From: Verrucomicrobiia bacterium DG1235
Lineage (GTDB): Bacteria; Verrucomicrobiota; Verrucomicrobiia; Opitutales; Opitutaceae
DNA: 64,000 bases
Assembly: GCA_000155695.1 (NCBI GenBank)
Contig: DS990592.1
Span: forward strand, 2,775,973-2,839,972
Direction: 5' to 3'
The position numbers and the translations under genes were made by a program. Under the pieces are notes generated by a model, which did not search any database, had not been told where the DNA came from, and worked only from the letters and a program-made list of their open reading frames with translations. Shown piece after piece: positions 37,731-38,254 of this stretch (positions within the stretch are counted from its first letter, which is position 1; each line of letters opens with the position of its first letter).

Positions 37731-37815
37731 GCCCTGGTGGTGGAATTGGTAGACACGCATGACTCAGAATCATGTGCCGCGAGGCGTGGGGGTTCGACTC
37801 CCCCCCTGGGCACCA
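37731..37815 (+). tRNA. tRNA-Leu (anticodon CAG)
   Basis: An 85-base class II cloverleaf with encoded CCA. Begins GCCCTGGTGGTGGAATTGG, anticodon loop CTCAGAA between stems CATGA and TCATG, variable arm TGCCGCGAGGCGT, T-arm GGGGGTTCGACTCCCCC. The acceptor pairs GCCCTGG with CCTGGGC with a U-U mismatch at 5-68, as in tRNA-Leu(UAA) at 12239. A hairpin repeat begins right at its CCA end. Confidence 0.97.
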
Positions 37816-37880
37816 GCCTTCGCTTGGAACGAAGTGGAAAGCGAAGGCTGTCACGCCGTAGAGCATCGAAGGCGGACCCA
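37815..37880 (+). repeat. Hairpin repeat, copy A, abutting tRNA-Leu
   Basis: Eleven-base arms (AGCCTTCGCTT 37815-37825, AAGCGAAGGCT 37839-37849) around GGAACGAAGTGGA, followed by GTCACGCCGTAGAGCATCGA and AGGCGGACCC. The arm includes the terminal A of the tRNA CCA. Copy B at 38185 shares the arm core and the following about 35 bases with three mismatches, but its loop is the reverse complement. Confidence 0.88.
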
Positions 37881-37918
37881 CATCCGATTTCCCAGCCTAC
37901 TCATTCCAAGACTGCGGC

Positions 37919-38182
37919 TTGGCAGGCCCAAACAGCATAACCAGCTTCCACTACGTTTACGTTCTCGTTTCAGGAGACGGAAAGCACCGTTACGTCGGAA
38001 CGACACAAAACCTCGAACAGCGCCTCAAAAAACACAATTCCGGAGGCGTTCCCCACACGTCCAGGCATGTACCTTGGACCATTGAAACAGCTACAGCGTT
38101 TCGAGCAAAATCGAAGGCGCTCGCCTTCGAGAAATACCTCAAATCAGGATCCGGTAGGGAATTCGCAAGACGGCATTTCTAA
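37919..38182 (+). CDS. GIY-YIG domain endonuclease-like protein (UPF0213-like)
   Basis: An 87-residue protein made of a single GIY-YIG domain. The motif appears as YVYVLVSGDGKHRYVGTT, the catalytic Arg in NLEQRLKKHNSGG, and the metal-binding Glu in ALAFEKYLKSGSGREFARR. These are the residues needed for a GIY-YIG nuclease. No ATG is available: the best start is TTG at 37919, and no Shine-Dalgarno sequence is obvious. The gene lies between two copies of a hairpin repeat directly after a tRNA, which suggests a mobile or formerly mobile cassette. The domain call is good; the target and the activity are unknown. Confidence 0.82.
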   Translation: MAGPNSITSFHYVYVLVSGDGKHRYVGTTQNLEQRLKKHNSGGVPHTSRHVPWTIETATAFRAKSKALAFEKYLKSGSGREFARRHF

Positions 38183-38184
38183 GA

Positions 38185-38254
38185 CCTTCGCTCTCCACTT
38201 CGTTCCAAGCGAAGGCTGTCACGCCGTAGAGCGTCGAGGACGGACTCCAAGTCC
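38185..38254 (+). repeat. Hairpin repeat, copy B, after the GIY-YIG gene
   Basis: Eight-base arms (CCTTCGCT 38185-38192, AGCGAAGG 38208-38215) around CTCCACTTCGTTCCA, followed by CTGTCACGCCGTAGAGCGTC and GAGGACGGACTCC. The loop reads as the reverse complement of the loop in copy A, while the flanking sequence is in the same orientation. It begins three bases after the GIY-YIG stop codon. Confidence 0.88.

Follow-up and report, generated by a model that had tools for sequence, protein, structure and literature searches.

A GIY-YIG nuclease gene with imperfect hairpins recurs behind bacterial tRNA and tmRNA genes and may constitute a selfish element

A nuclease gene and two hairpin blocks behind a tRNA-Leu gene

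In the window, that is, the whole stretch of 64,000 nucleotides analyzed here, a tRNA-Leu gene is followed by a hairpin block, a short gene encoding a GIY-YIG nuclease and a second hairpin block (Table 1), which is the arrangement described in the first-pass annotation. The start codon of the nuclease gene is uncertain, and its 5' end overlaps segment b. No second plausible gene was found between 37816 and 38254 besides the GIY-YIG ORF, and the unit in this interval contains no site-specific integrase. The arms a and a' are perfect over 12 nt (37814-37825 and 37839-37850) and take in the CA of the tRNA CCA. The annotated use of the CCA by this arm is thus correct, except that two bases (from 37814) rather than the last base alone are involved. 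By eye, pairing of segment b with the CCA and the start of a is possible. The order of elements, a-a'-c-b, corresponds to type I as defined below.

Table 1. Features at the tRNA-Leu locus of the window
Feature	Position	Strand	Basis or remark
tRNA-Leu(CAG), host gene and insertion site	37731-37815	+	ARAGORN; encoded CCA at 37813-37815
Start of the unit: a (from 37816) and a' (AAGCGAAGGCTG, 37839-37850)	37816-37850	+	Inverted-repeat comparison
c hairpin, CGCC-GTAG-AGCAT-CGAA-GGCG	37854-37874	+	Non-Watson-Crick core (G.A, T-A, A.G); covaries in relatives
b segment (ATTCCAAGACTGCGGCTTGGCAGGCC)	37903-37928	+	Sequence, alignment and type assignment
GIY-YIG nuclease gene, single domain, 87 codons, TTG start	37919-38182	+	ORF and PF01541 match
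Copy B, second hairpin block without a nuclease	38185-38245	+	Starts 3 nt past the GIY-YIG stop codon

The arms at 37814-37847 and 38185-38218 are inverted copies of one another (34 nt, 97%), while the stretch after the arms recurs without a change of direction (direct pair of 61 nt, starting at 37817 and at 38185, 79%). For this reason, the earlier observation of reverse-complementary loops between unchanged flanks is real. The loop of copy B is inverted relative to that of copy A, and by eye the c hairpin of copy B is degenerate. For copy B, we favor a truncated unit in tandem, or a remnant of one; at another locus, L069, a tandem unit begins at the ORF stop in a comparable manner. A 21-nt core had two matches in the window, compared to 0.00 expected from 100 shuffles, and a 26-nt core with up to 3 mismatches matched only the two window sites in the whole 5.78 Mb genome. 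A repeat confined to this locus had been named as an argument against a mobile cassette. The exact repeat indeed occurs only here, yet homologues of the nuclease in relatives do have hairpins.

The encoded protein matches PF01541 (E=3.4e-16) over residues 11-78 of its 87 aa, and the extra DNA-binding region that is expected beside the nuclease domain in homing endonucleases is absent. Amino acids Y14, Y25, R35 and E71, which we take to be the GIY-YIG catalytic positions, are invariant or conserved at 90% or more in A1 and A2. In a profile search, the best match was UPF0213 BH0048 (9.3e-12), with Slx1 at 2.2e-8. An AlphaFold2 model of the protein has a pLDDT of 92, and Foldseek placed UPF0213 (1zg2, BH0048; 3e-4) and Slx1 (1.6e-3) ahead of UvrC and I-TevI, as did the profile search. 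UPF0213 and Slx1 proteins, the latter working with Slx4, thus have the same fold, and to our knowledge neither is mobile or tRNA-linked. Moreover, we know of no job for small single-domain UPF0213-type GIY-YIG proteins. In a comparison of four proteins with NCBIfam, none of them scored above the cut-off of any model. A pN/pS of 0.21 among 8 orthologous genes (uncorrected, with pS near saturation) indicates purifying selection on the gene; a stop codon lies within the matched stretch in 8 of the 160 loci introduced below.

Recurrence and hairpin architecture at tRNA and tmRNA 3' ends

Relatives of the nuclease were sought in 57 genomes of the order, 286 of the class and 21 of one genus, and the protein was present in 23, 109 (at E<=1e-6) and 15 of these, respectively; further confirmed matches, the best 80 of 573, came from scanning named genomes. 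Removal of identical ORFs among the matches listed (L129, for example, duplicates L025) left 160 loci, and locus counts lean to high-scoring relatives because only returned loci enter. By record titles, the named records listed span 13 phyla, although the labels of metagenome-assembled genomes may be wrong. A housekeeping repair nuclease, co-transcribed with a tRNA by chance, would agree with the resemblance to Slx1 and UPF0213 and with purifying selection. We regard this as extremely improbable given that only 109/286 class genomes and 23/57 relatives carry the protein, that its genes follow many different tRNAs and that it is absent or broken at orthologous sites (see below).

In 111 of the 160 loci, the same strand carries a complete tRNA or tmRNA gene no more than 600 bp upstream (median distance 141 bp), compared to 1 upstream on the opposite strand, 1 downstream on the same strand and 2 downstream on the opposite strand. 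The tRNA 3' end is therefore a recurrent site. A tRNA/tmRNA-like 3'-end fragment, recognized by a regular expression, was present in 14 further loci, 8 of them with a CCA hairpin start, and 11 loci were cut by a contig end. The remaining 24 had no tRNA by the criteria used. Ten of these still have a CCA and hairpin start, and among the other 14 there are seven with at least 598 bp upstream yet no tRNA (L039, L040, L041, L045, L047, L080, L090). At L047, the GIY-YIG ORF is convergent with a tRNA-Tyr that itself bears a nuclease-less block. Seventeen RNA types are represented among 107 rows (Ala 28, tmRNA 23, Leu 12, Ser 9, Val 9, and others). Placement is base-precise: in 111/111 tRNA-linked loci there is a CCA that coincides with the called RNA end or lies no more than a few bases from it, and the motif N-Y-C-T-T/A-C-G begins at the first base after the CCA in 72 of them (GCCTTCG 47, TCCTTCG 10, GTCTTCG 9).

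In the loci viewed, the unit measures approximately 350-450 bp. Across the loci compared, neither an exact target-site duplication nor a clean right boundary was found. Integrative elements at tRNA and tmRNA 3' ends use tyrosine integrases. They share with our family the niche and the intact host RNA. Candidate duplications of the tRNA 3' end were noted by eye at L026, L027, L052 and L172. Integrative elements differ in that the unit described here is about 400 bp long and without an integrase, and no constant att duplication was seen in the family. It is conceivable that tRNA-targeted genomic islands merely left GIY-YIG genes and repeats behind, in which case nuclease and hairpin would have no role, and displaced tmRNA-like 3' fragments beside some units do suggest that islands use the same sites. 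However, the window unit has no second plausible gene, the minimal unit recurs at 17 RNA types and hairpin type follows the protein (see below), so that we consider such hitch-hiking very unlikely. With the window protein as query, there was no match in PLSDB plasmids at 1e-6, and one pattern scan of viral contigs gave 15 stretches, 3 of them relatives. Rfam at the gathering threshold reported only tRNA, tmRNA and one unrelated suhB in 33 loci.

Weaker GIY-YIG relatives, nearly all of which lack the CCA hairpin, were also inspected; 40 of them, intended as a control, were hand-picked rather than drawn at random from the lower part of the class-level list. A complete tRNA lies upstream on the same strand in 22 (13/20 and 9/20), so that the set does not serve as a negative control; L334, one of the 22, has a CCA hairpin start. 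Linkage to tRNAs as such thus does not require the hairpin and extends beyond the CCA hairpin type, and the targeting of tRNAs may predate this hairpin or exceed it in range.

Two orders of elements account for the 54 loci classifiable by script, namely type I (CCA-a-a'-c-b-ORF; 17 loci) and type II (CCA-a-b-a'-c-ORF; 37 loci). Alignment of type II blocks from Verrucomicrobia, Bradyrhizobium and Acidobacteria revealed the same non-coding block in common. Among the 106 tRNA-linked loci with 300 bp of sequence to each side, a c hairpin within 300 bp of the ORF was located upstream in 63, downstream in 11 and on both sides in 8, compared to a background of 4 in 209 window tiles. This does not bear out the initial idea that two palindromic copies form the two ends of the element.

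The c element has the layout arm-G/A-N-A-G-loop-C-G-N-A/C-arm'. Paired arms were found in 143 of the 160 loci, and in 104 of the 143 the outer core pair is G.A (88) or A.C (16); the search behind this number also matches shuffled sequences (92.6 per 160), but there the core table is flat. In 77 loci anchored without requiring arm pairing, arm pairing was 0.792, compared to a mean of 0.656 and a maximum of 0.705 in 200 partner permutations, and G.A plus A.C amounted to 59, compared to at most 48 in 200 permutations (G with A versus A with C, Fisher 4e-8). Since both exceed all permutations in the anchored set, the arms of c and its non-Watson-Crick core are both constrained. A stricter motif was present on the top strand in 106/160 loci and, formed by a with b, on the bottom strand in 74/160, compared to 6 when shuffled. 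An inverted motif pair on both strands argues for a role at the level of DNA. A symmetric wobble test gave a mixed result on the folding strand, with 14 G.T versus 13 A.C in the arms and 9 versus 3 in the apical stems of c, and 16 versus 3 and 2 versus 5, respectively, in the bottom-strand motif. An initial loose search for c (79/160 loci) was noisy and has been superseded by the arm-pairing and anchored analyses.

These data also bear on an RNA-level system, in which tRNA, hairpins and nuclease mRNA would form one transcript, the tRNA 3' end would be regulated or processed and the unit would be kept as an addiction or control device. Such a system would explain why most tRNA-linked units lie on the same strand, directly after the CCA and at a short distance, and it would fit the possible pairing of the CCA with b and the G.T excess of the apical c stems on the top strand. 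It would not explain the inverted bottom-strand motif, the empty and hairpin-only sites, the stop codons within the matched stretch, hairpins located away from tRNAs or nearest structures that include Slx1, a branched-DNA cutter. Given empty sites, hairpins that stand alone and a motif that is inverted on the bottom strand, we find an RNA role less likely and assign it a low probability.

Occupied and empty sites, target switching and scattered hairpins

The genome of the window has 4 listed PF01541 matches, including L002 (a 495-aa frame) and L004. It contains related hairpins and two further GIY-YIG units elsewhere, one of them decayed. The second unit lies behind a displaced 3' end that resembles that of tmRNA, and the intact tmRNA is approximately 6 kb upstream (G000:C6:2950854-2957831); this region gives the impression of an island inserted at the tmRNA. 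In the third, decayed copy, a hairpin follows a CCACCA-like end, and the ORF remnant keeps the same terminal residues. Within the same genus, tRNA-Leu(CAG) of G003 is identical over 85 bases and is not followed by a unit, and G001 and G006 equally have no unit at tRNA-Leu(CAG). In G007, the tRNA 3' end is repeated and then followed by a unit. G005 contains two blocks, one of which lacks the nuclease and lies behind another tRNA-Leu (L172), whereas the other is cut by a contig end (L170).

A comparison of one tRNA-Leu site and its downstream gene in the 21 genomes of genus g53, 19 of which retained the flank, showed the site in different states. The site is full in 7 of the 19 (L211, L215, L216, L217, L219, L221, L229), empty in 5 (L220, L223, L225, L226, L227), hairpin-only in 2 (L213, L228), occupied by a broken ORF in 2 (L218, L222) and by a remnant in 1 (L224). 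For L212 and L214, the tRNA lay outside the stretch retrieved, and a unit is known nearby (L138, L192). Loci classed as empty or hairpin-only gave no GIY-YIG match. The full and empty alleles of this orthologous site distinguish species, not strains. Four of the five empty sites (L223, L225, L226, L227) belong to one closely similar group and thus represent few independent events, and an empty site may never have been occupied. At tRNA-Leu(GAG), units look vertically inherited across several species; movement there is therefore infrequent. In sum of these states and of the identical tRNA-Leu in G003 that lacks a unit, mobility of the GIY-YIG hairpin unit, proposed at the outset for the window cassette, is well supported.

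RNA type changes 56 times on the protein tree, compared to a minimum of 16 and a shuffled mean of 70.4 (0/200 as low), although the tree is built on 78 columns and its support is mostly weak. Targets are thus partly inherited and often switched. The sister proteins L026 (tRNA-Ala) and L046 (tRNA-Gly) are from one genome. Three properties of the non-coding block follow the protein more closely than shuffled data, with near-copies contributing to the result: hairpin order (7 changes versus 14.7; 0/300 as low), arm class (22 versus 32.6; 0/300) and the base after the CCA (12 versus 17.1; 0/300). The link between nuclease type and repeat that the first-pass annotation had anticipated is therefore present.

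Nuclease-less copies, likewise anticipated, exist not only as the hairpin-only sites of g53 and the block of G005 but also as scattered hairpins. A loose c pattern applied to the 57 genomes gave counts often near the control, and a stricter pattern was adopted. This strict pattern matched in 40 of the 286 genomes, compared to 3 control matches overall; genome G081 had 75 matches, compared to 0 for the reversed pattern. The pattern is borne by 35 of 109 genomes with the protein and 5 of 177 without (Fisher 5e-12), an association that is partly built in, since full units match the pattern too, and that is uncorrected for kinship. We viewed 21 loose-pattern copies, hand-chosen for canonical loops: two follow tRNA-Phe and tmRNA at approximately 30 bp, another two follow a single tRNA-Ser at 170 and 1271 bp, and the other 17 had no tRNA called in the stretch. 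Of 20 strict-pattern copies viewed, none had a tRNA called nearby, and one (L306) follows a CCACCA-like end. In G081 (L288-L299), 30-nt hairpins are often inside larger repeats (..CGTCGAGCACT / ATCGAGC..), and the scattered hairpins of this genome may be nested in another repeat family.

Solitary copies of this kind raise the possibility of single-strand transposition in the manner of REP/RAYT systems, in which the hairpins would be transposon ends that move as folded single-stranded DNA, with the GIY-YIG nuclease in place of a Y1 transposase or with a host Y1 enzyme acting in trans. Imperfect hairpins, inverted pairs, conserved mismatches, solitary copies without a tRNA called nearby, and the distribution of the strict pattern in G081 and among protein-bearing genomes all accord with this model, as does the presence of Y1 transposase genes in 16/16 genomes tested. 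However, a hairpin was near only 3 of 30 Y1 loci, which are part of a longer list, compared to 5/42 in the window background and 65/134 for GIY-YIG loci, and GNAG lies within the stem instead of forming an unpaired foot. Besides, we know of no GIY-YIG enzyme that forms a covalent intermediate of the kind used in such joining. We therefore consider this model unlikely, though not negligible.

The comparison with RAYT made in the first-pass annotation is sound in concept alone, since the unit encodes no Y1/HUH transposase and the frequency of hairpins at Y1 loci is close to background. Based on the parts of the sources available to us, REP/RAYT (TnpA-REP) systems, in which hairpins are paired with a nuclease, and related IS200/IS605 elements and REPtrons resemble our family in short imperfect hairpins, inverted pairs, dispersed non-autonomous copies and a repeat-nuclease link (PMC3733652, PMC6006769). 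They differ in that their nuclease is of the HUH-Y1 type, whereas a GIY-YIG nuclease is the sole plausible gene of the unit here. In REPtrons, an unpaired GTAG or related tetrad is placed at the end of the hairpin, whereas in our family GNAG is inside the stem, facing CGNA, and full units are mainly at tRNA and tmRNA 3' ends. It is possible that the Opitutus terrae GTAG families listed in PMC3733652 already include some of the scattered hairpins.

A possible homing- or transposon-like mode and related insertions

The other system that comes close is SegB of T-even phages, a GIY-YIG nuclease often encoded near tRNA genes and cutting inside them (PMC13096335). The available part of this source describes a selfish GIY-YIG gene beside tRNA genes of many isotypes and without a tie to introns, as in our family; SegB is phage-borne, and no hairpin block with a precise CCA junction is mentioned there (PMC13096335). 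By contrast, the window unit is chromosomal, and its 87-aa protein consists of the nuclease domain only and is nearer to UPF0213 and Slx1 than to I-TevI. Homing features that it shares with SegB are the conserved Tyr, Arg and Glu and the full and empty alleles between species. SegB and REP/RAYT are the closest known systems, and the hairpin unit is without defining features of both. A survey of the GIY-YIG superfamily mentions neighborhood analyses and, in the part available, notes no tRNA linkage (PMC1564403). In our literature search, which covered mostly sources outside subscription journals and bioRxiv, we found no description of a chromosomal GIY-YIG hairpin unit at tRNA ends.

We think it probable that the unit is a selfish homing- or transposon-like element of tRNA and tmRNA 3' ends, the nuclease of which acts on its own hairpins, on the empty site, or on both. 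The element would consist of the hairpin block and one GIY-YIG gene, inserting base-precisely right after the CCA; insertion would leave the RNA gene intact, and the unit would probably be transcribed from the promoter of the RNA gene. We infer the substrate from the cutting of branched DNA by Slx1 enzymes, the conservation of imperfect hairpins in the unit and the cutting of empty sites by nucleases of the homing type. The nuclease may thus be a structure-specific DNA endonuclease of the UPF0213/Slx1 type that recognizes folded hairpins, one copy folding on each strand. It would cut at or near unoccupied tRNA 3' ends, at hairpins extruded in replication, or at both; the two ideas are compatible with each other. 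The break would then be filled by copying the unit. Subsequently, units would lose the nuclease and decay, and single hairpins could scatter too. A given site may reflect either gain or loss.

More tentatively, and with some doubt on our part, the unit might be a new kind of mobile element, in which a single Slx1-like GIY-YIG nuclease and folded hairpins of DNA, their core being non-Watson-Crick, jointly constitute a transposition machinery specialized for tRNA and tmRNA 3' ends. Such elements would be one branch of a wider set of GIY-YIG-plus-palindrome insertions in tRNA anticodon arms, T-loops and conserved coding motifs.

An element as we favor it would assign one UPF0213-type subfamily a defined role in the genome and a substrate that can be tested, and it would account for the additional sequence repeatedly found downstream of tRNA and tmRNA genes. 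It further suggests that single-gene selfish elements at tRNA ends are present in bacterial chromosomes, as they are in phages. If the nuclease acts on the hairpins, REP-like repeats would have two chemistries rather than one, and this may be of use in explaining palindrome families that have no known transposase, for example, the CGTC palindrome class as described in the available part of PMC3733652.

Several observations concern other insertions. As read by eye, some loci of class relatives (L312, L314, L316, L319, L324, L325, L338, L339, L347) have a different small GIY-YIG gene that begins 7-330 bp past a tRNA. Downstream of the gene, part of this tRNA is repeated, with a palindrome in place of the anticodon arm region, for example, TCCCGC..GCGGGA at tRNA-Met loci, and some of the ORFs seem to stop at the TAA of the anticodon loop. 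Based on its translation, the GIY-YIG ORF of L341 splits a putative tyrosine recombinase gene between ..VQELLGH and VSTTMIYTHVL.., with weaker signs of an interrupted tyrosine recombinase gene at L331 and L342 and of another interrupted gene at L330. Finally, a second repeat family is seemingly located in a tRNA T-loop copy at L027, L052, L060, L165 and L172, with the layout GGTTCGA, CGNAGCGAAGC.. to GCGAATCA, ATCC..CCA.
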